This document shows, piece by piece, positions 41,013 through 63,221 of a stretch of 64,000 bases of DNA; within the stretch, counting starts at the first letter, position 1; every line of letters begins with the position of its first letter. The notes below the pieces were generated by a model. The model did not search any database. It was not told where the DNA came from and saw only the letters and a list, made by a program, of their open reading frames with translations. A program made the translations under genes and the position numbers. The DNA lies in contig NZ_CP094264.1 of assembly GCF_023614235.1 (NCBI RefSeq), forward strand, positions 1,922,001 to 1,986,000, read 5' to 3'. This DNA is from Streptomyces sp. MRC013. Its GTDB lineage: Bacteria; Actinomycetota; Actinomycetes; Streptomycetales; Streptomycetaceae.

Positions 41013-41384
41013 TTACTTCTCCTTCTTGGCGCCGTAGCGGCTGCGGGCCTGCTTGCGGTTCTTGACACCCTGGGTGTCGAGCGAGCCGCGGATGATCTTG
41101 TAGCGAACACCCGGCAGGTCCTTCACACGGCCACCACGCACGAGCACGATGGAGTGCTCCTGCAGGTTGTGTCCCTCACCCGGAATGTAAGCCGTGACCT
41201 CGATCCCGGAGGTCAGACGCACACGCGCGACCTTGCGGAGGGCCGAGTTCGGCTTCTTCGGGGTGGTCGTGAACACACGCGTGCAGACGCCGCGGCGCTG
41301 GGGGGAACCCTCGAGCGCGGGCGTCTTGTTCTTCTCGACCTTGTCCTGCCGGCCCTTCCGGACCAGCTGCTGGATCGTAGGCAC
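41013..41384 (-). CDS. rpsL: 30S ribosomal protein S12
   Basis: S12 guards decoding accuracy and is the main streptomycin-resistance target. The GTG start at 41384 with GGAGAA upstream gives 123 residues beginning [20 protein letters not shown]. The resistance-prone stretches [17 protein letters not shown] and [12 protein letters not shown] look wild type. It is the first gene of the str operon. Confidence 0.98.
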
Positions 41385-42677: not shown

Positions 42678-42963
42678 CGCGTCTCCCCGTGTCCCGTCGC
42701 CACCAGTCCCACCCAGGGTCGCAGGCGTTCCCGAACGGTGCGCCCGGGGTGCCGGTGATGCGAGATGCGGTCCCCGGACGGTCTCCGGCCTGCGTGAACA
42801 CGGGGGCAGGCCGTGATCAGCCTACCGGGGGCGGCGCGGGGCGGCCGTTCCGGGCACGGGGGCCCGCGACCAGATCCCGCCGTGCGGACGGCGCCCGGGC
42901 GGGCGGCCGTCGCGGGGTGTGAGCCGCGCCCCCGGAAGCCGGGCGGCGGACCGTCCGGCGGGT

Positions 42964-43404
42964 TCACTCCTTGGCGAGCGGCGTCCGGCGCTCCGGGGCG
43001 GCCGGCAGGAACTGGCCTGCCACCTTCATGAACATCTCGCGCTGCTCCGGCGGCACGCCCAGCCCGGCGGCGGCCTCCTCCAGCGTCAGGCGGCGCCCCT
43101 CCCCGGCGGTCCGCGACGGCGCTCCGGCGGCCTGCGGCAGCGGGAGGTCGTCCTCCGTGAGCCGACCGGATCTGATCAGCATGTCGCGCACCGGCACGTC
43201 CAGAACGTGCGCGAGGCGGCGGGTCGTCTCCAGGTCCGGCATGCTCTGGCGCTGCAGCAGCCGGGTGATGGCCGCGCGGTGGACGCCGGCCTCGTCCGCG
43301 AGGCGGGACTTCCCGCCACCGCGGGGGCTGTCGATGTCGAAGCCGCGGCGGCGGATCAGTTCCTCGACCCAGGCGGCGAATTGTTCCAGGTCACTGGCGG
43401 TCAT
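42964..43404 (-). CDS. XRE-family transcriptional regulator of the tail cassette
   Basis: A 146-residue helix-turn-helix protein. The start MTASDLEQFAAWVEELIRRR is followed by the HTH (GGGKSRLADEAGVHRAAITR, LLQRQSMPDLETTRRLAHVL), typical of phage-type repressors. The C-terminal part (LTLEEAAAGLGVPPEQREMF) is of unknown role. It is transcribed divergently from the WhiB-like gene across a 200-base region with TTGCG repeats, the likely operator. It is the best candidate for the repressor of the tail genes. Confidence 0.85.
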   Translation of the reverse strand: MTASDLEQFAAWVEELIRRRGFDIDSPRGGGKSRLADEAGVHRAAITRLLQRQSMPDLETTRRLAHVLDVPVRDMLIRSGRLTEDDLPLPQAAGAPSRTAGEGRRLTLEEAAAGLGVPPEQREMFMKVAGQFLPAAPERRTPLAKE

Positions 43405-43448
43405 GGTGTGGGGTCGCCTCCCTCCGAAGCGACGCACAGAGTATCGCG

Positions 43449-43563
43449 CTTGCGCGCAAGGAATTACGTGCCCCTACGCGCGCACCGTGCCGATTCCGAG
43501 AAGAGTCCGGCCCGACACTAGTTGCGGGCGAGATCGCAACATGTAATGGTGCGTACTCGCAAC
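43449..43563. promoter_or_regulatory. TTGCG/CGCAA repeats in the XRE/WhiB-like divergent promoter
   Basis: A perfect 12-base palindrome CTTGCGCGCAAG (43449-43460), an inverted pair GTTGCG (43521-43526) and CGCAAC (43535-43540), and a further CGCAAC (43558-43563) lie between the two start codons. This arrangement is typical of operators bound by dimeric repressors. The same GTTGCG occurs in the promoter region of the tail operon. Binding by the XRE protein is inferred. Confidence 0.6.
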
Positions 43564-43604
43564 ATTCTCGTCGGGCACTCATCCCGCCGCGCCCAGGAGT
43601 CCGC

Positions 43605-43892
43605 ATGCCGTCCGCACCTCCCCCGCCCCTCCCAGAGGTCCTCGAGTCCTTCGGCTGGCGCGCTGCGGCCGCCTGCTCCGGGCTTCCTCCGCACACCGTG
43701 TTCGCTCGCCAAGAGACGGAGGCGCGACCTGCGCTGACGGCGTGCGAGCGGTGCCCGGTGGTACGCCGCTGCCTGGAGGTCGTGGCACCCGCCGAGAACT
43801 GGTTCGACGGTGTCAGTGGGGGGCATCTGTGGCGCAACGGGCGGCCGGTTCCACTCCGCCGCCGCGATCACGGTGCCTCCGATGTCGGCTGA
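43605..43892 (+). CDS. WhiB-like iron-sulfur transcription factor
   Basis: A 95-residue Wbl protein. The four cluster cysteines are C24, C47, C50 and C56 (AACSG and CERCPVVRRC). The following turn reads GVSGG (69-73) where most Wbl proteins have G(V/I)WGG, so Trp is replaced by Ser; a basic tail PLRRRD ends it. CAGGAG lies upstream of the ATG. Wbl proteins bind the primary sigma factor and redirect transcription in actinobacteria, and some are encoded by actinophages. Here it is the first plus-strand gene of the tail cassette and could act as its activator. Confidence 0.87.
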   Translation: MPSAPPPPLPEVLESFGWRAAAACSGLPPHTVFARQETEARPALTACERCPVVRRCLEVVAPAENWFDGVSGGHLWRNGRPVPLRRRDHGASDVG

Positions 43893-44310
43893 GGGGCGTT
43901 GCGCCCTCGCACGTCCTCCTCGTCGCATACGCAGGACGGCTCGCCCGATCGACCGGATGCACCGGACGTACGGCGTCTACGCCGTCCCGCCCGGGCACCG
44001 GACCCCAGGGGCGTACTCCAGGGGCGTACAACGGCTCCGGGCGCTCCCGGCTCCGGCACCGCCCGACCGGCCGCGCCGCCTCTCCGACCCCCGTGCTCAC
44101 GCCGCACCGCCGCACCGCCGCACCGGAAGCCTCTTCAGTGCCCGTCCCGTCACCGGACCTCCCGGCCCCTCCGGGTCGCTCGCCCGCCTGGCCCGTCCAC
44201 ACCGACCGCACCGCTTCGCCGGGCGGCGGCCCTCCGCAGTGGAAGTCACCGGACTCCACCCGCCCGACCCCCGCACCGCACCGCATCACGTCACCTCTGG
44301 GAGGCACTCC
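43893..44310. other. Gene-poor gap with a short tandem direct repeat
   Basis: I find no gene supported by a ribosome site and sensible protein sequence here. CCAGGGGCGTAC occurs twice, at 44005-44016 and 44018-44029, and a GCACCGCC motif repeats near 44100-44125. The stretch could carry a promoter or operator for the following gene. Confidence 0.45.
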
Positions 44311-45060
44311 ATGGCCGAACCGACATCCACCGCGCGCACCGTCCGGGACGCGGCCCTCTGGATCGAGGCGCTGCTGAAGCAGTTCCCCGAACTGCTGGGC
44401 GAACTGGCTCCCGGCCGCCCCTCCCCCGGCGCCGCCCCCGAGCGGCGGGCCCCCTCGCCCGAGGCCGCGCGGCGCGTCCGCGAGGAGCGGCTGGACGCCC
44501 TGCTGGTGGAGAAGCGGCACGGGCTGGCCGTCCCCGGGTACTCCGCCGCACCCCTGCGCCTCCACGTCTCCGACGCCGTACGCGACATCACCGACGGAGT
44601 CGTCGAACTGGACGAGGCCGTCCACGACAAGCTGGGGCTCGGCCGCCCCCGCCGCGCGCGGGTGCCGCAGCGGCTGGTCCGGATCGCCGGGCTGCTCGGA
44701 CGGATCGCCGACCACCCCCCGCTCGCCGCCCACGTGCGGGACGAGTCCCGTCGGATGGCACGCCGTTGCGCACGCGTGCTGGGTGATGCGGAGTCGATGG
44801 TCCGGGTACGGGGCCGCTGTCCCCGGTGCGACTCGGTGTCGCTGCGCGCCTTCCCCGCCCGCCGGGCGGTGCTCTGCGTGAACCCGGCGTGCCGGTGCGA
44901 CGCCCCGGAGTGCGACTGCCGTACGGACCCGGCGTACCGGCACGTCTGGCACGAGGACGGTTGGGAGGCCCTGGTGGGCGCCGGCGGGGCGGACCGGGCC
45001 GAGATCGACTCGTCCATGGACGAGTCGGCGGAGGCGTGGGCCGGCCCCCGGGCCCGGTGA
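44311..45060 (+). CDS. Cysteine-rich phage-like protein of unknown function
   Basis: A 249-residue protein starting MAEPTSTARTVRDAALWIEA after a GGGAGG site. The N-terminal 150 residues are helical. The C-terminal part has eight cysteines (153, 170, 173, 189, 194, 196, 201, 203), the middle ones as RCPRCDS and NPACRCDAPECDCR, forming a zinc-ribbon-like unit followed by YRHVWHEDGWEALV. I do not recognise the family; zinc or nucleic-acid binding is a reasonable guess. It is followed by a small HTH gene. Confidence 0.75.
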   Translation: MAEPTSTARTVRDAALWIEALLKQFPELLGELAPGRPSPGAAPERRAPSPEAARRVREERLDALLVEKRHGLAVPGYSAAPLRLHVSDAVRDITDGVVELDEAVHDKLGLGRPRRARVPQRLVRIAGLLGRIADHPPLAAHVRDESRRMARRCARVLGDAESMVRVRGRCPRCDSVSLRAFPARRAVLCVNPACRCDAPECDCRTDPAYRHVWHEDGWEALVGAGGADRAEIDSSMDESAEAWAGPRAR

Positions 45061-45163
45061 CGGCGCCGCCCCCGCACGTCCTGCCCGGCGCACCGGCCGG
45101 CCCGCTCCCGGCGAGGAGTCCCCGTACGCCCCCCGTATGACCGACCACCGAAGGAGACCGCAC

Positions 45164-45361
45164 ATGACCATCGCCGCCGGCACGTTGATCGACAGCGACC
45201 TCGCCGCGGCGGAGGCCGGTGTCGTACCGGCCACCATCCGCAAGTGGGTGCAGCTCGGGCACCTGGTACCGGCCGGGCGGCGGGGCCGGGCGCTCCTCTA
45301 CCGGCTGGAGGACGTGTTCGCGGCCGAGCGCGCGGCGCGGCGAAAGGGGCCGGCCCGCTGA
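45164..45361 (+). CDS. Small MerR/excisionase-like helix-turn-helix protein
   Basis: A 65-residue protein starting MTIAAGTLIDSDLAAAEAGV with an AAGGAG site. The segment VVPATIRKWVQLGHLVPAGR and then ALLYRLEDVFAAERAA is the winged helix of MerR-type and Xis-like small proteins. In phages such proteins act in regulation or excision; no integrase gene is present here, so regulation is more likely. A very strong hairpin follows. Confidence 0.83.
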   Translation: MTIAAGTLIDSDLAAAEAGVVPATIRKWVQLGHLVPAGRRGRALLYRLEDVFAAERAARRKGPAR

Positions 45362-45380
45362 CGGCGGCGGTGCACGAGGC

Positions 45381-45443
45381 GGTACGGCGGACGGGAGAGG
45401 CGGTCATCCCCTGGGGGTGACCGCCTCTCCCGTCCGCCGTACC
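45381..45443. terminator. Very strong bidirectional terminator inside the tail island
   Basis: A perfect 26-bp inverted repeat (arms 45381-45406 and 45418-45443) with an 11-base loop that can itself pair. It lies between convergent genes (stops at 45361 and 45453). It insulates the regulatory genes from the tail operon. Confidence 0.88.
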
Positions 45444-45452
45444 GGGTCCGGA

Positions 45453-45776
45453 TCAGGGCTCGTCGTTCCCGTCGCGGCACGTGGGGAGCGCCTGCGCGTC
45501 GTCGGGTCCGGGGTGCGCCCTGCCTAAGTGGGCGACGGCCTCCTGCCAGCCGCTGGCGAACCCGTGCGTCTCGGCCGCGTCGGAGATCCGCGCACCGATC
45601 TTCCCGACCATCGCGGTGAGGGCTCTCGCCGTCTCGGCCGTGTAGACCCCGGACTTCCCTGCCTCGGCGGCCACCTCCACGGCTGCCGCGACCACTTCCG
45701 TCAGCCGTCCCCGAGCACTGTCGGCACTGCTGGCCACACGCACCTGCCCTTCCCCGTTCGCGCGACGGGCTGCCAT
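45453..45776 (-). CDS. Small helical protein with an ASGW motif
   Basis: A 107-residue protein, mostly helical: GRLTEVVAAAVEVAAEAGKS and ARALTAMVGKIGARISDAAE, then HGFASGWQEAVAHLG. The ASGW stretch also appears in the Pro-rich protein at 41682-42677, suggesting a shared small domain. It is transcribed away from the tail operon, whose promoter region it shares. Function unknown. Confidence 0.68.
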   Translation of the reverse strand: MAARRANGEGQVRVASSADSARGRLTEVVAAAVEVAAEAGKSGVYTAETARALTAMVGKIGARISDAAETHGFASGWQEAVAHLGRAHPGPDDAQALPTCRDGNDEP

Positions 45777-45887
45777 CTGCCTTCACCAGCGTTATTCGAA
45801 TGTGCGTTTGATTTCAGAGGGTACGCCCACCGCGGTGCCGTGGACCACCCGAAACGCGCCCCTTACGAACGAACACGCACGAGCAAG

Positions 45888-45916
45888 TTGCGTTCTCGCG
45901 CGATCCCAATCACTAT
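45888..45916 (+). promoter_or_regulatory. Candidate tail-operon promoter with a GTTGCG operator half-site
   Basis: TTGCGT (45888-45893), a 17-base spacer and CACTAT (45911-45916) precede the first tail gene by about 190 bases. The -35 lies within GTTGCG (45887-45892), the same element repeated before the XRE and WhiB-like genes. The 329-base gap 45777-46105 contains no other feature that I can support. Confidence 0.5.
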
Positions 45917-46105
45917 GGGTGCAGCGGCGGAGCTGTGCCCGCATCCCTCCAGGGCACCGCTCCGCCGCTCTCGCGTCCGGGCGGCGCGCCCGCGGGCCCC
46001 GCGCACCGGACGGCAGGCGCCCCGGCCGCCGTTGGAGCGCCGTGCGCGCCCCGGCCCGCCGCCCGGACGTCGTCAACCCCGTACGAGAAGGAGTGATCCC
46101 CCGTC

Positions 46106-46513
46106 ATGAGCTCAGCACCGAGCACCTTCCCCGATGTGGAGGCCATCGTCGTGGACCTCCTCTCCGACCGGCCGGAACTGGCGGGGGCGGTCATCGACGA
46201 GACGCCGCCGCCCGGCTTCGACGGCACGCAGCGGGCCGTGATCGTCTCCCGTCGCGGCGGTGCCTGGATCGACGACCTCCACGTCGACCAGCCGCTGATC
46301 GAGCTGGAGGCGTACGGCCCCGACAAGACGACCGCGCACGTCCTGGCCAACGCGGCCCGCGCGGTACTGCTCCGGAGCGCCGGCACCGTCTTCGGCACCT
46401 CGGTCCTCACCGACGTCGCCGAGGCCGACGGGCCCCGCTGGCTGCCCGACTACGTCCACACCGCCGCGAACCGCTACCTCTGCGTGATCCGGCTCTCCGT
46501 CCGTACGGGCTGA
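46106..46513 (+). CDS. Phage tail terminator-like protein
   Basis: A 135-residue protein starting MSSAPSTFPDVEAIVVDLLS. The order VIVSRRGGAWIDDLHVDQPL, IELEAYGPDKTTAHVLANAA and then a C-terminal strand set fits siphophage tail terminators, which cap the tail tube. It lies immediately before the tail-tube gene, the usual position. In an intact phage head-tail connector genes would precede it; here there are none. The next 277 bases hold only a weak hairpin (stem 46553-46560 with 46569-46576). Confidence 0.72.
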   Translation: MSSAPSTFPDVEAIVVDLLSDRPELAGAVIDETPPPGFDGTQRAVIVSRRGGAWIDDLHVDQPLIELEAYGPDKTTAHVLANAARAVLLRSAGTVFGTSVLTDVAEADGPRWLPDYVHTAANRYLCVIRLSVRTG

Positions 46514-46790
46514 CCTCCCCGCCCGTATCGGCGGTCGTACGGACCGGCCTCCGCCCGCACCCGCGGTCGTGCGGGCCGACCGCGCCGGCGCCCGCACCCA
46601 GTCCAGACCGGACCGGCCGGCCGCGGCGCCCGCACCCCGCACCCGTGCGGACCGGCCGCACCCCGCACCGGTACCGGCCGGCGCACCGCCGCCCGTACCC
46701 CACAGACCAGGCCCCGTCACTCCCGGCAGGGCCTTCGCCGTACCCACGGCAACCCCACCGCACCACCCGATCCCCTCCAAGGAGCACACC

Positions 46791-47405
46791 ATGGCAGGCA
46801 ACTCCGCTTCCGAGATCCGCGTCGCCGGTACCGGCCGGGTCCTGGTCGCCCCCCTGGGCGCCGCCCTCCCGACCGCCTTCTCCGCCAACCCGTCCACCGA
46901 CTGGGGCAGCGCCTGGGTGGACCTCGGGTACACGACGACCGACGGGGTGACCTTCTCCAAGAAGGACAAGCTCGACCCGGTCGAGACGTGGCAGTCCATC
47001 AGCCCGGCCCGGTTCGTCTACTCGGACCGCGACCTGACGCTGAAGTTCTCCATGCTCCAGTTCAACGAGGACACGCTGCCGTTCTTCATGGGCGGCAGCA
47101 AGACCGACATCGTCTCCGGCGGCACCACCAACCCGGGCGTCTTCACCTTCGACGTCCCGGACGGCCCGACCTTCGACGAGCGGGCCCTCGGCCTGGAGTT
47201 CACCGACGGCAAGAACGTGACCTACCGCTTCGTCATCCCCCGCGGCCAGGTCACCGCCACCGACGACATCAAGCTCGCCCGCAAGGCGGCCGCCTCGCTC
47301 GGCGTCACCTTCACCGCGCTGTCGGCCGGCGACGGGGAACCGCTGGCCACCTTCGTCATGAAGGACCCGGCCTACGGCACGGCCCCCACCACCGCCACCG
47401 CCTGA
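46791..47405 (+). CDS. Major tail (tube) protein
   Basis: A 204-residue phage tail-tube protein starting MAGNSASEIRVAGTGRVLVA with AAGGAG upstream. WGSAWVDLGYTTTDGVTFSK, LKFSMLQFNEDTLPFFMGGS and LGLEFTDGKNVTYRFVIPRG are typical of siphovirus tube proteins. It should polymerise into the non-contractile tube. A perfect hairpin right after the gene may raise its level relative to downstream genes. Confidence 0.85.
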   Translation: MAGNSASEIRVAGTGRVLVAPLGAALPTAFSANPSTDWGSAWVDLGYTTTDGVTFSKKDKLDPVETWQSISPARFVYSDRDLTLKFSMLQFNEDTLPFFMGGSKTDIVSGGTTNPGVFTFDVPDGPTFDERALGLEFTDGKNVTYRFVIPRGQVTATDDIKLARKAAASLGVTFTALSAGDGEPLATFVMKDPAYGTAPTTATA

Positions 47406-47416
47406 CCACCGACCCC

Positions 47417-47451
47417 GCGCCGGGCGGGAGCCCTCCACTCCCGCCCGGCGC
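47417..47451 (+). terminator. Hairpin after the tail-tube gene
   Basis: Perfect 14-bp stem (47417-47430 with 47438-47451) and a seven-base loop, 12 bases past the tube-protein stop, inside a co-directional operon. It is likely a partial terminator or an mRNA-stabilising hairpin that gives excess tube protein. Confidence 0.7.
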
Positions 47452-47508
47452 ACGCTCCACCCCTCCACCCCTCCACCACGAACCGGTCCCAGAGATACGG
47501 AGACCCAC

Positions 47509-47799
47509 ATGGCCTCGTTCAACGTCAACGCCGCCCGCGCCCAGCGCCTGGAAGCCCTCGGTCGCGGCTGGTCCTTCGAACTGGACGGCGACACCTTCGA
47601 ACTGCCCACCGAGCTCTCGCGCACGACGGCCAAGGCTCTGCGCCGGCTCGACGACGACGACGTGGACGGCCTGCTGAGGCTGCTGCTCGGCGAGGAGCAG
47701 TTCGCGCGCTTCGAGAAGCACGAGGTCACGATGCAGGACATCGCCGCGATCCTGAACGCCTACGGCAAGGAGACCGGGCTCGGCCTGGGGGAAGACTGA
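47509..47799 (+). CDS. Tail assembly chaperone, short form (gpG-like)
   Basis: A 96-residue helical protein, MASFNVNAARAQRLEALGRG to LNAYGKETGLGLGED, that corresponds to phage lambda gpG by size and position between tube and tape-measure genes. It would coat the tape-measure protein before tube polymerisation. Near its 3' end, GGGGGAA (47787-47793) allows a -1 shift into the next frame. Confidence 0.8.
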   Translation: MASFNVNAARAQRLEALGRGWSFELDGDTFELPTELSRTTAKALRRLDDDDVDGLLRLLLGEEQFARFEKHEVTMQDIAAILNAYGKETGLGLGED

Positions 47800-48218
47800 G
47801 CCTCGACGAGTTCGTCACCGAACACGCCGAGGCTCTCGAAGCCGACCTGCTGAGGCACTACGGCGTGGACCTGCTGGACTGGCACCGCGGCCGGCTCACG
47901 GCGCGCCGGCTCGCGGTGCTGATCAAGCACATGCCACGCGACAGCGCCCTGCTGACCGAGACGGACGGCGAGGCGGCCGACTGGTCGACCACCGACTACC
48001 TGCTGGCGGCGGTCGTCGACCACCTGGCCGCGGCGAACTGGATGTTCGCGTCCGTCCACTCCGACGAGGACGCCGAACCGCCGGAGCGCCCGGTACCGGT
48101 CCCGAGGCCGGGCGACGGGACCACCAGGACGGCGGAAGCGCCACGACCGGCCGAGCCCGCACCGGCCCGGGACCCCGAACCGCCGAGCCCGGTGGAACTG
48201 GCCCGGTTCTTCAGTTGA
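47790..48218 (+). CDS. Tail assembly chaperone, frameshift extension (gpGT-like)
   Basis: Reading on in the -1 frame after codon 94 (GGG, 47788-47790) gives GRLSLDEFVTEHAEALEADL, LRHYGVDLLDWHRGRLTARR and LAVLIKHMPRDSALLTETDG, then a Pro/Glu-rich tail. This matches the T part of actinophage chaperones. The fusion would be 236 residues. The P-site tRNA can re-pair perfectly with GGG one base back. There is no good ribosome site for separate translation; the first start-like codon in this frame is GTG 47865, inside the conserved part. Confidence 0.75.
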   Translation, partial: GRLSLDEFVTEHAEALEADLLRHYGVDLLDWHRGRLTARRLAVLIKHMPRDSALLTETDGEAADWSTTDYLLAAVVDHLAAANWMFASVHSDEDAEPPERPVPVPRPGDGTTRTAEAPRPAEPAPARDPEPPSPVELARFFS

Positions 48219-48221
48219 CGC

Positions 48222-48641
48222 TCAGCCCAGCAGCAGGAGACCCGCCACGACGGAGCCGAGACCGGCCACCGCGGTGACGGCGACCGCCGGCCACATCCGG
48301 CACGGCGGATAACCGCCCGGCGGATAGATGAAGCCGGGATAGCCGGGGTCGAGATCCACGCGCACGATCTCACCGGGTGTGAACGTCCGGTCGCCGAACT
48401 TCCTGGGCGTGCTGGCGATCCACTCCGGCTTTCCCTCCGGCCGCGGCGGCACGCCCTCTCCGACGACCCGGAACCGCCAGGACGGGCCGGCGTCCAGTTT
48501 CAGGGCGCCGAGCATTTCCACCGCCACCGTCACACGTCGCCGGTATTCACGCACGGAACTGATCGCGAAATAAGCACTGTAGGCCAGGAACAAAGCCCCG
48601 ATTCCCATCGCCGCGATGGCAGGCACTAACACTGCGTTCAT
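48222..48641 (-). CDS. DUF3592-like membrane protein, reverse-oriented in the tail operon
   Basis: A 139-residue protein. MNAVLVPAIAAMGIGALFLA begins a first membrane helix, then a globular domain (WRFRVVGEGVPPRPEGKPEW, DPGYPGFIYPPGGYPP) and a C-terminal hydrophobic segment AVAVTAVAGLGSVVAGLLLL. This helix-domain-helix layout resembles DUF3592 proteins. It is the only minus-strand gene within the tail block and its stop is only three bases from the stop of the T frame. Such a gene is a phage 'moron' in style and could give immunity or simply be a passenger. No function is assigned. Confidence 0.72.
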   Translation of the reverse strand: MNAVLVPAIAAMGIGALFLAYSAYFAISSVREYRRRVTVAVEMLGALKLDAGPSWRFRVVGEGVPPRPEGKPEWIASTPRKFGDRTFTPGEIVRVDLDPGYPGFIYPPGGYPPCRMWPAVAVTAVAGLGSVVAGLLLLG

Positions 48642-48674
48642 GCGCGGAGGCTACCAGCCCCGCCAGGAGGAGTG

Positions 48675-49304
48675 ATGACAGAGAAGACGGACGCACAGCT
48701 GAGGGCCGAGGTCGATGCGCTGCGCACCGAGTTGAGCCTGAAAGCCGCGAAGAACGACATTTCGTCTTTTATCAGGATAGACAGCGTCAAGCAGATAGCC
48801 CGCGCCAGCGACACCTCGAAGATCGCCACCGAGGATTTCGTCAAGCAGGAGACGGCCACCAAGTTCTGGGAGTTCTTCAAGGGCCCCGAGGTCCTCGCCA
48901 TCTTCCTCGGCTGGGCGATTTTGAAATTGGAACTGACCCCGTTCGTCAACTTCGACCCGGCCATCGAGAACTGGCTGAAGAAGCACGACTGGGAGCGGAA
49001 CCGGTTCGGCATGCTGATGAAGCTCAACGCCACGGAACTGGAGCGGCGCGCCAACGTCGTCGCCGCCGCCGAAAGACGGCTGGTCGACATGGAGACCGGC
49101 ATCAGGCGCCTCACGAGGCTCACGCTCGACAGCCGCACCAGACTGCGTGAGCTGGGCCGGAAGGTCGCCGCCCTGGAGACACGGTCGGCGAGCACCCGAC
49201 AGGCGGTGCGGGACATCCCGGGCTCCCCGGAGATGGCGGTGGCGGCAACACGTACCGCCCGCCTCCAGGCACAGGTGAACCTGCTGTCCGCCGCGCTGGC
49301 ATGA
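48675..49304 (+). CDS. Coiled-coil protein with a central hydrophobic segment
   Basis: A 209-residue protein (MTEKTDAQLRAEVDALRTEL) with GGAGG four bases before the ATG. An N-terminal coiled coil is followed by a hydrophobic stretch FFKGPEVLAIFLGWAILKLE and a long C-terminal coiled coil (ELERRANVVAAAERRLVDME onwards). Parts of the gene have lower GC than the neighbours (for example 48750-48800). It lies between the chaperones and the first tape-measure gene. I do not recognise the family; a tail-length or membrane-inserting role is possible. Confidence 0.7.
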   Translation: MTEKTDAQLRAEVDALRTELSLKAAKNDISSFIRIDSVKQIARASDTSKIATEDFVKQETATKFWEFFKGPEVLAIFLGWAILKLELTPFVNFDPAIENWLKKHDWERNRFGMLMKLNATELERRANVVAAAERRLVDMETGIRRLTRLTLDSRTRLRELGRKVAALETRSASTRQAVRDIPGSPEMAVAATRTARLQAQVNLLSAALA

Positions 49305-49353
49305 CCACACGTCTCCGTCGCCAGGAACCAGCACTCCACGAAGGGGGCCAGAA

Positions 49354-51832: not shown

Positions 51833-51928
51833 GCCCGGCACGGCCGCGGCACCCCGCCGGGGGCCCGGCTCCCGCACCGGACCGCGACCCGAGGGCGCGG
51901 CCTGACGAAAGTGAGGTGACGGCCCGTC

Positions 51929-52864: not shown

Positions 52865-52928
52865 CCGGCCCCGCAGCCACGGCCCCCACCGCCCCCGACC
52901 CCCGCAACGCACCCTCCAGGAGGACATC

Positions 52929-54131
52929 ATGCCCGTCCGCAGCGCATGGCTGATCAACCGCACCACGACCGACTCCGGCCAGACCCGCTCCGACACCCGG
53001 CTCGCCCCCACCGGCACCCTGGCCCCCAGCGGCGCGCTGACCACCGCCTCCGGTGTCGTCCCCGGGTCCAAGGACGGCCGCTACCTCATGGACGGCCTGT
53101 ACGTCCGCGGCGACACCGCCGGGATGACCGCGAACGTCGCCCCCGGCCGGGCCGTCGTCCAGGGCTCCCCCGCGGCCGGCGCCTACCCGGTCGTCCTGAC
53201 CGACCACGCGCAGGTCGCCTTCGACGACGGCGACGCGAACAACCCGCGCGTCGACCTGGTGCTGCTGCGGGTGTACGACGCCCAGTTCGATCCGGCCTCC
53301 GGGCGCACCGAGGCCGTCCTGGAGGTCCTCAAGGGCGCGCCCGCGCCCAACCCGGAGCCGCTGCCCGTGCCGGAGGGCGCCCTCGCCCTGGCCCGCGTCC
53401 ACGTCCCGGCCGGCGCGTCCGTCGGCACCGGCGGCCTGGACTGGTCCAAGGCCGTCCAGGACCTGCGCCACACCACGGTCGCGGCCGGCGGCATCCTCGC
53501 CGAGTCGTGGAACCGCGACAGCAAGGGCGGCTACGCGGGCCAGTACCGCGACAACGCCAGCCAGCTCCAGCGCTGGGACGGCGCCCGCTGGGTGTCCTAC
53601 CCGCGGCACATCGGCGGTGTCGCCCCACAGGGTGCGCTGGCGGCCGGCGAGTACCCGGGGCAGTACCGCGACGAGGGCGGCAGGCTCCAGCGCTGGGACG
53701 GCGCCGTGTGGCGGCCGGTCGTCCCGGTCACCGGCTGGGCGTTCAACAACGACGGCGGCTACTGCACCTCCACCACCTGGGTGGAAGCCATCGCCGACAC
53801 CGTCGGCCCGTCCATCTCCACCCAGTTCACCACGCCGGTCTCGGGCATGGTGCTCATCACCGTCGGCTACCTGGGCGACAACCCGGTGGACGGCGCCTGG
53901 TCGCAGATGAGCGCGGTCGTCCGGCTGGACGGCGCCGTCGTGCTCCCGGCCGCGGACCAGCGGGCGGCACAGGCGACCGGCAAGAACGGGAGCTCGGTGA
54001 CGCACACGTTCCGGCTCGCCGGCCTCAAGCCGTACACGGAGTACACGGCGGTCGGCGCGTACCGCTCCTCGGCCGCCAGCAACAACGCCTGGATCGACAA
54101 CCGGTTCATCCGCGTGGACCCGGTGCTGTGA
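52929..54131 (+). CDS. Baseplate/minor tail protein with QYRD-QRWDG repeats
   Basis: A 400-residue protein. The N-terminal part (PGSKDGRYLMDGLYVRGDTA, DGDANNPRVDLVLLRVYDAQ) resembles baseplate upper proteins of siphophages. Two 20-residue repeats at 202-221 and 242-261 share the pattern GQYRD-(5)-LQRWDGA-x-W. The C-terminal beta-rich domain (STQFTTPVSGMVLITVGYLG onwards) could be a receptor-binding or accessory domain. AGGAGG precedes the ATG. Confidence 0.75.
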   Translation: MPVRSAWLINRTTTDSGQTRSDTRLAPTGTLAPSGALTTASGVVPGSKDGRYLMDGLYVRGDTAGMTANVAPGRAVVQGSPAAGAYPVVLTDHAQVAFDDGDANNPRVDLVLLRVYDAQFDPASGRTEAVLEVLKGAPAPNPEPLPVPEGALALARVHVPAGASVGTGGLDWSKAVQDLRHTTVAAGGILAESWNRDSKGGYAGQYRDNASQLQRWDGARWVSYPRHIGGVAPQGALAAGEYPGQYRDEGGRLQRWDGAVWRPVVPVTGWAFNNDGGYCTSTTWVEAIADTVGPSISTQFTTPVSGMVLITVGYLGDNPVDGAWSQMSAVVRLDGAVVLPAADQRAAQATGKNGSSVTHTFRLAGLKPYTEYTAVGAYRSSAASNNAWIDNRFIRVDPVL

Positions 54132-55246
54132 GCCGCCCCATGGCCCGAGCCGTCGCCACGCCCGTCTACCGGGCGGTCTTCTGCGACCTGCGCACCGACC
54201 GGGTCCTCGACGTCCTGCCGCTCACGGAGGCGAGGTTCGACGACTACATCGGCAAGCCGGGCTCCCTGTCGGCGACCGTTCCGCTGCCCGACCCCGCCCT
54301 GGCCGCCCGCGCCAGGGAGGCCCTCCGGCCCGGCCGCACGGCGGTCTGGCTGGAGCGGGACGGGGACGTCTGGTGGGGCGGGGTGCTGTGGACCTGCACC
54401 CCGGCCACCGACGAACAGGGCCGGATGACCGTGCAGTTCCAGGCGGGCACCTTCGACTCGTACCTGGACCACCGCATCCTCTCGGCCGACGTGGTGCTCC
54501 TGCGGGCCGACCAGTTCGACATCGCCCGCGCCCTGGTGGCGCACGCCCAGGAGCAGGACGGCGGCGACATCGGGATCAGCCTGGGCGCCGAGACGTCCGG
54601 CGTGCGCCGCGACTTCACGTCCGGCTACACGGCGCTGGCCCGGGTCCGGGAACTGCTCGACAAGGTGGCCCGGCTCGCGGACGGCTTCGAGTGGCGCGTC
54701 CACTGCTACCGCGACGGCCAGGGCCGCCGCGTCAAGCGGCTCCAGCTCGGGCACCCGAAGATCGAGTCGAGCCGGGCCGACATCGTCCTGGACCACCCGG
54801 GCTCCGTCCTGTCGTACAGCCTGCCGACGGACGCCACCGTGCAGGCGAACGTCTGGGTGGCCCGCGGCGAGTCGGCCAACACCGACCAGGCCCGGGACTC
54901 GCTGCCGCTCACCGCCGCGGCGAGCGAACCGGCCGACCTGGCCGGCGGGTGGCCCCGACTGGAGCGCACCTCGGACCACAGCGGGGTCACGGACGTGGCC
55001 ACCCTCCGCTCCCTGGCCGAGGCCGAACTGGCGCGTCAGCGCCGCCCGGAAATCATCCCCGAGCTGACCGTCGTCCTCGGCGACCGGATCACACCCGCGC
55101 TGCTGGGCGCCCGGATCCGGCTGCGGATCCACGACCTGTGGCACCAGGAGGGGCTCGACGCCCGCTACCGGATCGTCGGCCTCGCCGTGAACCCGCCGCA
55201 GCGCACCAGGCCGGAGACGGCCACCCTCTACCTGGAAGGAGCCTGA
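54128..55246 (+). CDS. Tail-tip protein, siphovirus Gp37-like (Tal-type)
   Basis: A 372-residue protein of the tail-associated type found in actinophages (ReqiPepy6 Gp37-like). VYRAVFCDLRTDRVLDVLPL, LEARFDDYIGKPGSLSATVP (as TEARFDDYIGKPGSLSATV) and a C-terminal GARIRLRIHDLWHQEGLDAR mark it. The GTG at 54128 overlaps the previous stop (GTGA); an ATG at 54140 is the alternative. It should form the hub below Dit. Confidence 0.77.
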   Translation: MSRPMARAVATPVYRAVFCDLRTDRVLDVLPLTEARFDDYIGKPGSLSATVPLPDPALAARAREALRPGRTAVWLERDGDVWWGGVLWTCTPATDEQGRMTVQFQAGTFDSYLDHRILSADVVLLRADQFDIARALVAHAQEQDGGDIGISLGAETSGVRRDFTSGYTALARVRELLDKVARLADGFEWRVHCYRDGQGRRVKRLQLGHPKIESSRADIVLDHPGSVLSYSLPTDATVQANVWVARGESANTDQARDSLPLTAAASEPADLAGGWPRLERTSDHSGVTDVATLRSLAEAELARQRRPEIIPELTVVLGDRITPALLGARIRLRIHDLWHQEGLDARYRIVGLAVNPPQRTRPETATLYLEGA

Positions 55247-55249
55247 CCC

Positions 55250-55963
55250 TTGGCGATCGTCCCCACCGACCTGCTGGACCGCATCCGCACCCTGGAGCGG
55301 CAGGTCCGGGAACTCATGGGCAGCGCGAACACCACGCCCGCCCTCAACCGGATCGACGGGGAGGTCGTCATCGGCAAGGACGGCCGGCTCCGCGTGAAGG
55401 TCACCGACGACAAGGACCTGGTCCACATGGGCCGTGTCCAGCCCGACCGCGGCCCGGACACCCCCCAGCAGGGCCTGATGGTCCGCCGGGACGACGGTCC
55501 GATGGCTCTGACCGTGCGGACGGCTGAACCGGACCGGCTGGAGACCCAGCAGGTGCAGATCTTCGACTGGTACGGGAACGTCGTCGTCGCCGACGACGCC
55601 GCCCGGCGAGGCCTCGCCCGCCCGTACATCCCGTACCCGCTGCCCCGGCCGGTCGACGCGGCCCGCTGGGAGTCCACCGGGAACACGGACTGGACCACGC
55701 TCTACAGCGGTCCGGCCATCTCCCAGCACCCGAGGCTGTACGCCCGGATCGCCGTCCAGGGCCCGGCCGGCGCGGAGGTGCGCCTCCTCGTCGACGGGAT
55801 CCAGGTGGGCCCCGTCGGCGGCCCCGGCGCGGACCTGGAGTTCCGGGAGTCGCTGGCGGCCGGCTTCAGCGCGACGGTCGCCTTCGAGATCCAGGCGAAG
55901 GTGGCGGCGGCGGGCGACACCGTCCGCTGCCGTCCACTCGCCCTGTACGGCGTCCAGTCCTGA
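55250..55963 (+). CDS. Minor tail / tail-tip protein
   Basis: A 237-residue protein starting at TTG 55250 with GAAGGAG upstream (LAIVPTDLLDRIRTLERQVR). A short N-terminal coiled coil is followed by a beta-rich domain (RIDGEVVIGKDGRLRVKVTD, LYARIAVQGPAGAEVRLLVD). It is three bases after the Gp37-like gene, and in actinophages small proteins of this kind follow the hub. Precise role unknown. Confidence 0.7.
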   Translation: MAIVPTDLLDRIRTLERQVRELMGSANTTPALNRIDGEVVIGKDGRLRVKVTDDKDLVHMGRVQPDRGPDTPQQGLMVRRDDGPMALTVRTAEPDRLETQQVQIFDWYGNVVVADDAARRGLARPYIPYPLPRPVDAARWESTGNTDWTTLYSGPAISQHPRLYARIAVQGPAGAEVRLLVDGIQVGPVGGPGADLEFRESLAAGFSATVAFEIQAKVAAAGDTVRCRPLALYGVQS

Positions 55964-56053
55964 CCCCGGGCCCCGTCCGCGGGGCCGCCCCTCCGACCGC
56001 CCCCGCCCCCGGCGGCACGCCCGTACGCCGCCGGGGGGCGGGTGCCGGGCCGG

Positions 56054-56088
56054 CCCCGGGCCGGGCCCCGGGCCGGGCCCCGGGCCGG
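56054..56088. repeat. 12-bp tandem repeat before the tail fibre
   Basis: The unit CCCCGGGCCGGG is repeated 2.9 times without mismatch at 56054-56088, within a 257-base untranslated gap (55964-56220) that is almost entirely G and C. Each unit can pair with the next, so it may form stable RNA structure. Confidence 0.75.
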
Positions 56089-56220
56089 AGGGCGGGGCCG
56101 TCCCAGCCTCCGCCCGCGCCGCCGCCTCCGCCCGCCGTACCCGCCCGCACCATCACCCACCGGCCCGCCGCCCGCACCGCCGTCGGCCGGGCCCGCACCC
56201 GCACTCGTGAAGGAGAGCCC

Positions 56221-57665
56221 GTGCTCCCCGACTCCATCCCCACCGTCCGCGTCACCGCCCGGTACCTGACCCCGGACGGCACCCCGATGAGCGGCTCCGT
56301 CGAGTTCCGCCCGCCGTCCCTGCTCACCCACTCCGCCGCCGACGTCTTCGTCGGCGGACCGACCGTCGCCCGCCTCGACGACCAGGGCCGGATCAGCGTC
56401 GTGCTGCCCGCCACCGACGCCTCCGGCTGGAACCCGGTCGACTGGACCTACCAGGTGACCGAGAAGCTCGCCGGCCTCGGCCAGAACCGCGCGTACCAGA
56501 TCGCGCTGCCCGCCGCCCGGCCGGCGGTCGACCTGGCCGACACCGCCCCGGCCGACCCGAACACCCCGCACTACGTGGCCGTGCCCGGCCCGCCCGGACC
56601 GGCCGGCGAAATGGGCCCGGTCGGCCCGGCGGGCCCCGTCCGGTCCGTCAACGGGCGCACCACGCCCGACATCACCCTCACCGCCGCCGACGTCTCCGCC
56701 ATCGCCGCGGACAGGGCCGGCGTGGCCGGCGGCGTCGCGAGCCTCGGCCCCGACGGCAGGGTGCCGGCGGCACAGCTCCCCCGGTCACGGGCGCGGTCTC
56801 CTCGGTCAACGGGCGGACCGGCGCCGTCACCGTCACCGCCGCCGACCTCGGGGCGCTGACGCCGGCCTCCGGCGACACCCGCTACCTGGGCATCGACGCG
56901 GCCCCGGTGAAGACCGTCAACGGCCGGACCGGAGCGGTCCAGCTGACCGCCGCCGACGTCTCGGCGGTCGCCGCCGGCGCCGCCGTGCTGACGACCGGCG
57001 ACCAGACGGTGAACGGCGCCAAGACCTTCGCGGTCCCGCCCTCCACCAGCGCCAACCCCTCGACCGCCAACCAGTTGGCCCGGCGCGGCTACGTCGACTC
57101 CGTGTCGGCCGCGGGCACCTGGTCCCCCGCCTCGATGGGCTTCTCGTGCTGGGCGTTCGACCCGGCCGCGTCCTCGGCCTACGCCGCCCAGTACTGCATG
57201 AACGGCTACGTGTACCTGATCGGCGTCCCGCTGCACACGGCCACCACCGTGAAGAACGTGGTGTTCTACGTCCCCGGTTACGCGGGCGGCACCCTCGCGG
57301 CCACCTCCTTCGCCGGCCTCTACACCGGCGCCGGGGCCAAGGTCGGGCAGACGGCTCCCCTGAACGGCCTGCTCGACAAGACCGGGGGGATGACGGCCAT
57401 ACTGCCGCTGACCACCGCGTACGCCGCCGCCCCCGGCAACTACTGGGTGGCGCTGCTGGTCAACGGCCCGAACCCGAGCAACAGCGGCCCGGCCTTCCTG
57501 CGAGGCGCGTCCATGGGCGAGTTCCCGGGCGGCAGCGCCCGGATGACGGGCGCCTTCGTCCGCCACGGCCGGCTCTCCACCACGGGACAGACCTCGCTCC
57601 CGCCGTCGTTCCCCCCGTCGTCGGTGATCGCGGACTCCAACGCCATCTGGGCCGCGCTCTCCTGA
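56221..57665 (+). pseudogene. Collagen-like tail fibre with VNGRTGAV repeats, frameshifted
   Basis: The GTG at 56221 with AAGGAGAG upstream gives VLPDSIPTVRVTARYLTPDG. After an N-terminal beta domain comes a short collagen-like Gly-X-Y stretch (GPPGPAGEMGPVGPAGP, about 123-139), then three copies of VNGRTxxxxxTAADVSA. The frame breaks at a C5 run (56778-56782); one extra C restores AQLPPVTGAVSSVNGRTGAV and continues to 57665. The C-terminal 190 residues (SWSP-like ASMGFSCWAFDP, YCMNGYVYLIGVPLHTATTV) form a beta-rich receptor-binding-like domain. The corrected length is 481 residues. It is the probable host-range determinant. Confidence 0.77.
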
Positions 57666-57688
57666 CCTTCCCCACGCCACCGCGCCAC

Positions 57689-57724
57689 GGGCCCCGTGCC
57701 GACTCCCACCGGCACGGGGCCCGC
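57689..57724 (+). terminator. Terminator between tail fibre and lysis genes
   Basis: Perfect 14-bp stem (57689-57702 with 57711-57724) with an eight-base loop, 24 bases past the tail-fibre stop and 24 before the amidase. It separates structural from lysis genes or dampens lysis expression. Confidence 0.78.
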
Positions 57725-57747
57725 CCGCTTTCCGAAAAGGAACCCCC

Positions 57748-58659
57748 ATGGCAGTCCCCCTCTCCCCCGACCGGCTCCTCGCCGCCCTGCGCGCCGAGGG
57801 CGTGCGCGTCGTCGAGCGCCCCGGCTGGCGCACCCACCACCGCAACCACGCCGGAGCCTGGGGCCCGGTCAGCGGCGTGATGATCCACCACACCGTGACC
57901 AGCGGCACCACCGCCTCCGTCGCCCTGTGCTCCCGCGGCTACGACGGCTTGCCGGGCCCCCTGTGCCACGGCGTCGTCGCCAAGGACGGCACCGTCCACC
58001 TCGTCGGCGGCGGCCGCGCCAACCACGCGGGCGGCGGCGACCCCTCCGTACTCCAGGCCGTGGTCACCGAGACGTACGGCACCCGACCGCCCGTCCCCCG
58101 CGCCCACCAGGGCAGCCCGGACGCCGTCGACGGCAACGCCCGCTTCTACGGCTTCGAGTGCGTCAACCTCGGCGACGGCTCCGACCCGTGGCCGGCCGCC
58201 CAGCTCGACGCGGTCGAACGCGCGAGCGCCGCGCTGTGCCGGGCACACGGCTGGGGCGCCAGGTCCGTGATCGGCCACCTGGAGTGGTCCGACCACAAGA
58301 GCGACCCGCGCGGTTTCGCGATGTCCGGGATGCGCGAGCGGGTCCGGAAGCGGCTCGGCGCGGCCCCGTCCCCCCAGAGGCCGACCGCGCCGAAGCCCGC
58401 CGCCCCCCGCCACCAGCCGTTCCCCGGCACCGCGTTCTTCCGGTCCGGCCCCAGCTCGCCCGTCGTCACCGCGATGGGCCGCCGGCTCGTCGCCGAGGGC
58501 TGCGGCCGCTACCGGGTCGGCCCCGGCCCGCGCTGGTCGGAGGCCGACCGCAAGTCGTACGCCGCCTGGCAGCGCAAGCTCGGCTTCACCGGCTCCGACG
58601 CCGACGGCTGGCCGGGCGCCGCCTCCTGGAACGTCCTGGAGGTCCCGTACACCACCTGA
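57748..58659 (+). CDS. N-acetylmuramoyl-L-alanine amidase (endolysin)
   Basis: A 303-residue Amidase_2/PGRP-type lysin. VSGVMIHHTVTSGTT holds the first zinc His (47 or 48), GHLEWSDHKSDPRGF the second His (177) and the Asp (186). CSRGYDGLPGPLCHGVVAKD and ANHAGGG are family features. The C-terminal 75 residues (GTAFFRSGPSSPVVTAMGRR, LVAEGCGRYRVGPGPRWSEA, YAAWQRKLGFTGSDADGWPG) are a peptidoglycan-binding domain common in Streptomyces and actinophage lysins. No signal peptide is visible, so it needs the holin. It starts with AAAAGGAA upstream. Confidence 0.9.
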   Translation: MAVPLSPDRLLAALRAEGVRVVERPGWRTHHRNHAGAWGPVSGVMIHHTVTSGTTASVALCSRGYDGLPGPLCHGVVAKDGTVHLVGGGRANHAGGGDPSVLQAVVTETYGTRPPVPRAHQGSPDAVDGNARFYGFECVNLGDGSDPWPAAQLDAVERASAALCRAHGWGARSVIGHLEWSDHKSDPRGFAMSGMRERVRKRLGAAPSPQRPTAPKPAAPRHQPFPGTAFFRSGPSSPVVTAMGRRLVAEGCGRYRVGPGPRWSEADRKSYAAWQRKLGFTGSDADGWPGAASWNVLEVPYTT

Positions 58660-58686
58660 ACCACGCACCCGTAAGGAGCACCGCCC

Positions 58687-58920
58687 ATGTCGGACGCCGC
58701 CAAGCGCACGGCCCGCACCGTCCTCCAGTCCGCCGTCGGCCTCGCCGTCGCGCTCCCCGCGATCGTCGACGCCGCGGGCGTCCCGGCGGCCCTGCCCTGG
58801 GTCGCCGGGGCGCTGGCCATCGCGGGCGCGCTCACCCGGGTCATGGCCCTCGACCCGGTCCAGCGTCTCCTGCCCGCCTGGCTGCGCACCACCCCGGTGG
58901 GTGCCGATGATCGAGTCTGA
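58687..58920 (+). CDS. Holin
   Basis: A 77-residue protein with two predicted membrane helices (VLQSAVGLAVALPAIVDAAG and LPWVAGALAIAGALTRVMAL) flanked by charged ends. Size, topology and place directly after the amidase fit an actinophage holin that times release of the lysin. Its 3' end overlaps the next gene by 14 bases. Confidence 0.8.
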   Translation: MSDAAKRTARTVLQSAVGLAVALPAIVDAAGVPAALPWVAGALAIAGALTRVMALDPVQRLLPAWLRTTPVGADDRV

Positions 58921-59173
58921 CCAGCCGAACGGCCCCGTCACCGTCGCGGTCGAACTGGAACGGCTGCGCGGCACGCTGGAGGCCGGGCTCGCCCGCGTCG
59001 ACGGCTCCCTCGCGCTGCTCGTCCAGCGCAGCGACCAGACCGACAAGCACCTCGCCGACATGGAGTCCCGCATCGACGCCCTGGAGCGCGCCCGCTGGCC
59101 GCTGGCGAGCATCGCCGCGCTCACCGCCGGCGCCGGGCTGCTGGCCACCTTCTGGCAGCTCGCCGCCCGCTGA
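58907..59173 (+). CDS. XhlA-like coiled-coil membrane protein
   Basis: An 88-residue protein, MIESDQPNGPVTVAVELERL, with a coiled coil (LARVDGSLALLVQRSDQTDK) and one C-terminal membrane helix (WPLASIAALTAGAGLLATFW). This layout resembles XhlA, which works with holin XhlB in Bacillus phages, or a spanin-like anchor. It overlaps the holin gene by 14 bases, suggesting a joint role in lysis. A GTG two codons upstream is an alternative start. Confidence 0.7.
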   Translation: MIESDQPNGPVTVAVELERLRGTLEAGLARVDGSLALLVQRSDQTDKHLADMESRIDALERARWPLASIAALTAGAGLLATFWQLAAR

Positions 59174-59253
59174 CCGGCCCCGTCCGCCGACCGGAGCGCC
59201 CCACGACCGGCCTCCGCGGCCCCGCCGCTCCGCGCCCGGTGCCTCCGGACACG

Positions 59254-59293
59254 CCGAAGGGCGGCCGCCCCTCGCGGGGTGACCGCCCTTCGG
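59254..59293. terminator. Terminator between the tail cassette and rpoC
   Basis: CCGAAGGGCGG (59254-59264) pairs with CCGCCCTTCGG (59283-59293), and the 18 bases between contain a second stem (GCCCC/GGGGT, one mismatch). It lies 14 bases past the rpoC stop, between convergent units. Confidence 0.8.
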
Positions 59294-59306
59294 TCAGGCG
59301 ACTCGC

Positions 59307-63221
<3,915 letters not shown>

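Follow-up and report, generated by a model that had tools for sequence, protein, structure and literature searches.

The 64,000-nucleotide stretch of Streptomyces sp. MRC013 DNA analysed here (hereafter the window), part of a single 5.33-Mb contig, carries at 42964–59173 a block of tail, lysis and regulator genes, mainly on the plus strand and with the regulators at its left end, that is flanked by rpsL and rpoC. The sequence supports an F-type (non-contractile) tailocin, a class described as siphophage-tail-like (PMC12090994), as the best reading of this block. Between tail assembly chaperone 2 and the first of two tape measure proteins (TMP1) it contains a divergent gene pair, A and B, which was absent from the initial annotation of the window. 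We consider it probable that the block is an old, host-kept F-type tailocin locus of the Streptomycetaceae with an exchangeable A–B effector–immunity cassette; this explanation is built on observations, namely which genes the block holds, where it lies, how it is distributed and kept by selection, how variable the insert is, that A and B are inherited together, and that orphan A genes exist. A further-reaching proposal, for which we see even chances, is that the loci form a Streptomyces tailocin family that tells kin by receptor and by a polymorphic, recombining effector–immunity cassette, and that they are the first tailocins with dedicated immunity genes, orphan copies being kept against the versions of neighbours.

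The variable cassette ahead of the tape measure gene

In loci (numbered L; genomes are numbered G) that retain both neighbours, the insert between chaperone 2 and TMP1 measured 0.6–5.3 kb, with a median of 1.6 kb. A codon-like plus-strand open reading frame (ORF) of at least 140 amino acids (aa) ended no more than 200 bp from the TMP1 start in 52 of 56 loci, the start being extrapolated where the alignment was partial; the forward ORF was missing in L103, L118, L131 and L141. As a rule, a gene of type A, encoding about 120–230 aa with a hydrophobic helix near each end, lies upstream of gene B, usually on the opposite strand. Across the inserts, 104.2 kb in total, 41 ORFs from 32 of the 56 loci fitted a strict two-transmembrane (two-TM) definition, two of which (in L121 and L134) run antisense to gene B and are perhaps not genes at all; the TMP1-to-hub control from the same loci, 351.7 kb, had none. 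The AlphaFold2 model of the window A protein consists of two helices around a five-strand domain (predicted local distance difference test score, pLDDT, 84). Its matches in a viral structure library were partly named DUF3592, and a fold search of the PDB returned nothing below E 0.001. The same domain was found by Pfam, below cut-off, in several other A proteins (best E 3e-5, L123), and a literature search yielded no paper linking DUF3592 with immunity. Against about 5.8 billion proteins the window pair had 4 and 2 relatives besides itself, a floor, as the search needs shared short words. The ratio of non-synonymous to synonymous substitution rates (dN/dS) of A and B within families was 0.13–0.49 (eight pairs, several with dS >1), and the membrane gene read antisense gave 1.08–1.59. 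This is the behaviour of coding genes that purifying selection maintains.

Co-variation of the two genes was measured in 38 of 49 loci, in which A and B had been assigned by hand before scoring. Left out were L063, L067, L092, L102, L103, L126, L141, L155, L160, L161 and L167 (A or B unassignable, or another kind of locus); the near-identical pairs L065/L114 and L112/L171 were kept, as were L153, whose A is not directly adjacent, and L072 and L163, whose A is on the forward strand. Similarity of A and similarity of B were correlated (r 0.752), and a partial Mantel test given core similarity (TMP1, the distal tail protein Dit, and the hub) left r at 0.740, which none of 5000 permutations reached (largest 0.187); a re-run gave 0.75. 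After removal of pairs with a core score of at least 0.85, r was 0.569. As a linkage control, A or B was compared with chaperone 2 or with the first 90 residues of TMP1, which gave partial r of 0.14–0.27 as against 0.75 for A–B, and among the 637 pairs with a core score below 0.8 the A–B value was 0.58, compared with −0.01 to 0.16 for the flanks. At E<1e-5, 49 of 703 locus pairs were similar in both genes, 47 in B only, 55 in A only and 552 in neither.

Some closely related tails carry unrelated forward genes. The loci of S. verrucosisporus CPB1-1, S. barkulensis RC 1831 and S. pini PL19 (L123, L159 and L124) have a core score of 0.98 and almost identical fibres as well as tails, yet scores of only 0.00–0.05 for B and 0.00–0.22 for A. 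By hub protein the closest named relatives of the window are S. somaliensis DSM 40738 (L104; 99%), S. roseolilacinus (L105; 94%) and S. purpureus (86%); the core score with S. roseolilacinus is 0.88 and both A and B score 0.00, whereas a pair matching the window's is found in S. griseus NCTC 13033 (L171; B at E 2e-46, A at E 7e-32). DNA identity between the window and S. roseolilacinus was 0.91–0.99 in coding windows of the terminator and tube genes, 0.77–0.79 in the first half of chaperone 1 and 0.95 at its end, and 0.67 at the end of chaperone 2; the cassette was unrelated, the first 300 bp of TMP1 stood at 0.59–0.69 and the remainder at 0.89–0.97. At 47606, L091 and L062 were closer to the window than S. 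roseolilacinus was. The TMP1 start was divergent in all seven relatives compared, as was the start of the second tape measure gene (TMP2). This pattern would fit replacement of the cassette by recombination.

Extra A-type membrane genes occurred in six loci. All ten that were hand-picked for testing had relatives among the cassette-adjacent A genes of other loci (best E 2e-58 to 1e-6), and for six of the ten the best-matching locus has a B gene without detectable relation to the resident B outside the trimmed C terminus (for example 74% to L066, 52% to L064 and 42% to L132). Such genes accumulate in the manner of orphan immunity genes. Three features of effector–immunity systems were found, namely an effector-like gene exchanged at a fixed position, a partner co-inherited beyond flank linkage, and orphan partners; a recognisable toxin domain, which is usual though not obligatory, was not.

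Among the loci classed as type II (hub tree, below), the forward gene of L213 belongs, by eye, to the family of type I loci L067, L126 and L127. Separately, L214–L217, L219 and L220, also type II, have a similar minus-strand gene of about 250–325 aa beside chaperone 2, with the motif DWLE..PDLPHL.ARLSELV (by eye).

Nevertheless, a number of observations weigh against an effector–immunity cassette in a working tailocin. Neighbouring genes can co-inherit by linkage alone, the flank correlations, small as they are, exceed most permutations (0–4 of 2000 reach them), and in 47 of the 96 locus pairs with similar B the A genes fall short of similarity at E<1e-5. Around the window cassette the dip in identity is not a clean tract. 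Four of the ten extra A genes find their best match in a cassette whose B is related to the resident one, and these may be plain duplicates. A strict two-TM ORF is missing in 24 of 56 loci, and in five of the loci (L065, L105, L106, L114 and L154) the A position is filled by a TerF-vWA-like family that is not two-TM, its proteins being mutually similar and matching PF10138 (TerF vWA) above cut-off in L114 and below it in L105 and L154. No relevant Pfam or PHROGs match to a toxin domain was obtained in a set of ten B proteins or in a scan of window B, the AlphaFold model of window B is poor (pLDDT 56), and some but not all B proteins gave a hydrophobic segment. Moreover, the tail fibre predicted by the initial annotation is present but split in the window, its N- and C-terminal parts lying in different frames; it is in frame in 35 of 36 comparable loci, the window being the sole exception, and by coordinates it is in frame in L104 too. 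Loci without a break include those of S. griseus NCTC 13033, S. xanthochromogenes JCM 4612 and S. roseolilacinus JCM 4335. The break, either a genuine mutation or an error of sequencing, may disable the window copy of the tailocin. Relatives of the window fibre were not seen in type II loci, L141 or L153. Lastly, the window block contains no exact LexA-type box GAACNNNNGTTC, which gives DNA-damage induction no support in this copy. Among nine loci checked, such boxes lie inside the block in the type II loci L214, L215 and L217, by position in the variable insert and the Dit gene.

Two other accounts of the cassette accept the F-type tailocin. The chief rival, unlikely in our judgement, treats the pair as a superinfection-exclusion or anti-phage 'moron', in which A would block incoming tails and B would be a matching tape-measure partner. 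Gene A is indeed a small membrane protein within a tail operon, phage membrane proteins that act on incoming tape measures exist (HK97 gp15, TP-J34 Ltp), and B adjoins TMP1, whose N terminus co-varies weakly with B and A (partial r 0.24 and 0.27). However, window B had no match in 50,697 phage records, so that no phage target carrying it was seen, and the orphan A genes find their matches among the A genes of further tailocin loci, so that the threat would seem to come from other tailocins. That the site is a recombination hot spot only, with fast-drifting, loosely constrained genes and with A and B linked without function, appears quite improbable. Adjacent genes on an exchanged tract do co-inherit, and both the pairs similar in one gene only and the slight co-variation of the flanks would be expected of such a site, but flanking stretches that border A or B just as closely show much weaker co-variation, the two-TM plan is kept across dissimilar sequences, A and B are under purifying selection, and A paralogues are stacked. 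Together with the orphan genes, the flank controls and the retention of two helices make linkage without function less likely.

Distribution, selection and origin of the locus

With TMP1 as query, matches at E≤1e-60 were obtained in 33 of 291 sampled Streptomyces genomes, the source genome included (the match being in pieces in G125 and G219), and seven more genomes gave short partial matches only (E 6e-21 to 2e-23). Comparison of the rpsL–rpoC interval across Streptomyces, as suggested by the initial annotation, placed the tail block there in 25 of the 33 positive genomes; in G238 and G116 only the rpoC side was on the same contig as the block. A limit on this site preference is set by the eight genomes with the block elsewhere: G023, G041, G073, G096, G202, G213 and G259, whose rpsL–rpoC interval is short (0.3–2.0 kb), and G012, in which rpsL and rpoC are far apart. 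The interval measured about 0.5–4.7 kb in ten hand-picked genomes without a TMP1 match, one of which (G172, L208) holds a MerR-like remnant there. Beyond Streptomyces, two genomes from other genera of the Streptomycetaceae have the block at this site, G363 and G317, the latter with roughly 8 kb of additional sequence following rpsL; in G308 the block lies elsewhere. Scanning named genomes yielded 68 loci, of which 31 showed rpoC in the flank, several contigs ending before rpoC could appear. From these TMP1, rpsL and rpoC counts, therefore, the locus is old within the Streptomycetaceae, patchy, and usually but not always at rpsL–rpoC.

A block confined to one genome and decayed, which the initial annotation named as the outcome that would tell against it, was not what emerged. 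The block occurs in many species, and an internal stop was found in 6 of 804 core-gene alignments, a count that does not include frameshifts ending an alignment early. In ten close pairs core-gene dN/dS was 0–0.61, apart from a single 0.94 in a small lysis gene. Nearly every core gene is open, and purifying selection acts on them. Core divergence fitted rpoC divergence only moderately (Mantel r 0.21–0.44, 34 loci), and vertical descent has therefore been mixed with exchange. A degenerate, functionless prophage remnant under loss would account for the window fibre frameshift, for the MerR-like remnant and for L065, which is without terminator, tube and repressor, but with so few stops, the fibre in frame in nearly all comparable loci, dN/dS well below 1 and the same gene order in three genera, it is very improbable.

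Of the rows of the hub tree (120 rows, quick method, midpoint root), 54 were 'phage-like', defined by the lack of an rpoC, chaperone-1 or strong tape-measure match in the available stretch and not by a head-gene test. A clade of their own was formed by 51 of the 54 phage-like rows; the other three were two short contigs inside the type I tailocin hubs (50 rows) and one Catenulispora row beside the type II group (19 rows). The amidase is 72–78% identical to other Streptomyces phages over about 0.2–0.6 kb, and relatives of the terminator, tube and tape measures are missing or weak in most phage-like loci (stretches of limited length). Among the matches listed in named phages, the top tube was 36% identical and the top tape measures about 30%. 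The particle looks like a mosaic.

Several further loci were noted in these scans. In L218, L219 and L221 the regulator group (MerR-like, zinc-ribbon-like, WhiB-like, Xre) is inverted relative to the tail operon, unlike in most loci. The loci of S. aureocirculatus, S. aurantiacus, S. aureoverticillatus and NRRL B-1347 (L160, L161, L162, L164) have the terminator, tube, chaperones and a type II-like hub in common and no amidase or rpoC match within the available stretch, and represent either a second tailocin lineage or prophages. One contig (L074) bears two equal-scoring phage-like hub genes about 39 kb apart (G036:C1:14413 and G036:C1:53414), as in a tandem or linear-plasmid prophage. An 11.3-kb 'viral' contig (L172, IMG/VR UViG_2862207470_000003) has the same match profile as L141, the rpsL–rpoC locus of S. 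griseocarneus 132, and appears to be that tailocin locus filed as a virus; loci with tails only may be finding their way into virus databases under the label of phages.

Gene content of the window block and the question of head genes

The genes of the block are listed in Table 1. The order of tail genes proposed by the initial annotation (terminator, tube, chaperones, tape measure, Dit, hub, fibre) was borne out by PHROGs and Pfam, with corrections; the housekeeping genes on both sides were confirmed as well. Tape-measure and Dit proteins are both encoded, but the gene taken for Dit (50699–51832) matches the tape-measure family phrog_3981 and is TMP2, the Dit gene being the next one. TMP1 and TMP2 look like a tandem duplication. 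A plus-strand ORF at 48672 was considered as a split tape measure and dropped, having no tape-measure match, whereas TMP1 and TMP2 do match. Chaperone 2 is probably made by frameshift from chaperone 1. For the predicted amidase–holin–XhlA-like set, the amidase holds (PF01510), and the two small proteins match PHROGs without a named function; they come after the amidase just as two small genes come after the endolysin of Streptomyces phage SV1. The locus has lysis genes of its own. The proposed regulators were likewise recovered (Xre-type, WhiB-like and MerR-like genes), and the WhiB-like, zinc-ribbon-like and MerR-like genes are part of the conserved block in relatives. Terminators said to bound the block were not substantiated: 42900–59320 has 3 terminator-like sites against 3.6 in shuffles, and promoter and terminator scans of this interval gave no more sites than chance. 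The only tRNA called, an ARAGORN tRNA-Gly at 45206–45302, was rejected as an attachment site: it lies inside the MerR-like gene without Rfam support and is probably false.

Table 1. Genes of the tail block and its flanks in the window
Feature	Position	Strand	Evidence or remark
rpsL	41013–41384	minus	left flank of block
Xre-family repressor-like regulator	42964–43437	minus	phrog_3949 E 6.7e-15, PF01381; relatives 60–88% identical
WhiB-like regulator	43605–43892	plus	PF02467 E 2.5e-8; phrog_472
Zinc-ribbon-like protein (ribbon by eye)	44311–45060	plus	weak phrog_1467/1568; relatives 48–85% identical
MerR/excisionase-like helix-turn-helix (HTH) protein	45137–45361	plus	phrog_2474 E 1.5e-14
Small conserved protein	45453–45776	minus	tblastn matches in relatives; no family match
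Tail terminator	46106–46513	plus	phrog_123 E 6.6e-23
Tail tube protein	46791–47405	plus	PF25681 E 5e-68 (for longer ORF); phrog_117
Tail assembly chaperone 1	47509–47799	plus	phrog_10551 E 1.2e-27
Tail assembly chaperone 2	47865–48218	plus	C-terminal part of long chaperone families, e.g. phrog_3656 173–258/300
Cassette gene A: putative immunity protein of the membrane, two-TM, with a beta domain resembling DUF3592	48222–48641	minus	TM at 1 and 116; AlphaFold2
Cassette gene B: putative effector borne on the tail; variable, C terminus helical/coiled-coil, one hydrophobic segment	48675–49304	plus	position before TMP1
Tape measure protein 1 (TMP1)	49354–50553	plus	phrog_3981 E 2.3e-28
Tape measure paralogue 2 (TMP2)	50699–51832	plus	phrog_3981 E 1.3e-26; 32% identical to TMP1
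Distal tail (Dit) protein	51929–52864	plus	PF22768 E 2e-8; phrog_5577 E 2.8e-105
Tail tip structural protein	52929–54131	plus	phrog_3398 'virion structural protein' E 1.9e-93; phage SV1-like order
Hub / minor tail protein	54131–55246	plus	phrog_1885 E 5.8e-97
Tip-associated protein	55250–55963	plus	phrog_9849 E 8.9e-88
Tail fibre, N-terminal frame (broken)	56221–56859	plus	phrog_14726 profile 2–127
Tail fibre, C-terminal frame (broken)	56907–57665	plus	phrog_14726 profile 293–535
N-acetylmuramoyl-L-alanine amidase (endolysin)	57748–58659	plus	PF01510 E 3.9e-22; phrog_880
Small membrane protein, holin-like (from its place)	58687–58920	plus	phrog_4316 E 1.7e-23, function not named
Small lysis-set protein	58901–59173	plus	phrog_5225 E 4.7e-29, function not named
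rpoC	59307–63221	minus	right flank of block

The initial annotation had also claimed that sheath, capsid, portal, protease, terminase and integrase genes are missing, and among the block proteins scanned with PHROGs and Pfam none was recognised, the statement on terminase referring to the large subunit. The lack of a sheath family match sets the block apart from contractile injection systems, as had been proposed. Capsid or terminase genes nearby would have spoken for an intact prophage; no capsid or large-terminase gene was recognised in the interval, and the tail genes have no head, packaging or integration genes beside them and are flanked by rpsL and rpoC instead. A few head-category matches did appear. 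The product of 52929–54131 matches phrog_9534 ('head protein', E 9.8e-6) and phrog_5339 (E 5.2e-5) and is taken as a tip protein because of its place and the SV1-like gene order; the fibre has a weak match to phrog_2824 (E 0.013), and the MerR-like gene weakly matches small-terminase and excisionase HTH families (E 0.001–0.008). The relatives have the same genes in the same order up to rpoC, their remaining ORFs lying outside the scan for head families. In favour of a gene-transfer agent or satellite with its head genes elsewhere stands the single Phage_portal (PF04860) match of the genome, about 400 kb from the block, from a genome-wide search that covered the portal family and not capsid or terminase; against it, the locus has its own terminator, lysis genes and regulators and neither portal nor capsid, and this reading is barely credible. 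Elsewhere in the window, 31318–33483 encodes a 721-aa protein with a PIG-L deacetylase domain, preceded by a TauE-like transporter gene at 30195–31046.

A possible mode of action and comparison with known systems

From the gene content we infer particle formation, lysis, carriage of the B product inside the tube, killing and immunity as follows. The Xre, WhiB-like and MerR-like regulators would control the tail operon; tails would assemble without heads and be freed by the amidase/holin lysis set, and tip and fibre would bind the envelope of a relative. The B product, translated just before TMP1, may travel inside the tube alongside the tape measures and so reach the target membrane, where killing would be due to B itself or to a channel formed with the tape measures. 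In the producer membrane, the A product would block its own version of B only. Swapping of the A–B pair as one cassette, by recombination through the conserved neighbouring genes, would allow strains that share tail and fibre still to separate self from non-self.

F-type tailocins are known from Pseudomonas (pyocins) and Listeria (monocins), and the usual view is that a tailocin does not harm its producer, whose surface offers it no usable receptor. Self-resistance has been ascribed to surface polysaccharide (PMC12090994). According to a Pseudomonas study, tailocins have no known immunity genes, and a genome-wide screen in Pseudomonas arrived at the conclusion that co-located immunity factors are missing from them (PMC8319346). 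For extracellular contractile systems, immunity proteins against their antibacterial toxins had not been identified (PMC10598620). The mechanism by which F-type tailocins kill is called largely unknown in PMC8910223. Within the portions accessible of the openly licensed literature, we found no report of a non-contractile Streptomyces tailocin at rpsL–rpoC or of tailocin immunity genes. If the proposed explanation is true, what the headless tails deliver is a killing component that is specific and can be neutralised; self-recognition evolves through cassette swapping, as in the type VI secretion system (T6SS) or S-type bacteriocins; the killing mechanism of F-type tailocins becomes testable with two small genes; and a genus known for contractile phage-tail devices has a second, non-contractile one.

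Contractile phage-tail-derived particles have been described in Streptomyces, where their genes are widespread (PMC8910223). Like these contractile injection systems (SLP / CIS-Sc), the block holds genes for a phage-tail-derived particle (PMC8910223), but no sheath gene was recognised in it. The closest named relatives of the block proteins, among those found, are actinophages. Phage SV1 and its relatives Austintatious, Darolandstone and Raleigh share tip genes of about 65–68% DNA identity, and in SV1 the endolysin is followed by two small genes, as in the block. In contrast to the block, SV1 has a portal, a capsid and a serine integrase, together with a single tape measure of 805 aa directly after the chaperones and no gene between; moreover, the tube and tape measures of the tailocin have only distant relatives in phages. 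With pyocins and monocins the locus has in common non-contractile tail genes without head genes, lysis genes, regulators and a fixed chromosomal site, while two tape-measure paralogues and a polymorphic effector/immunity-like cassette distinguish it, a comparison drawn at the level of gene layout. Polymorphic toxin systems (T6SS, contact-dependent inhibition, S-type pyocins) resemble the cassette in their swappable effector-like gene, cognate-like partner and orphan partner copies; the putative cassette of the block differs in lying inside a tail operon beside a tape measure and in having no recognisable toxin domain.

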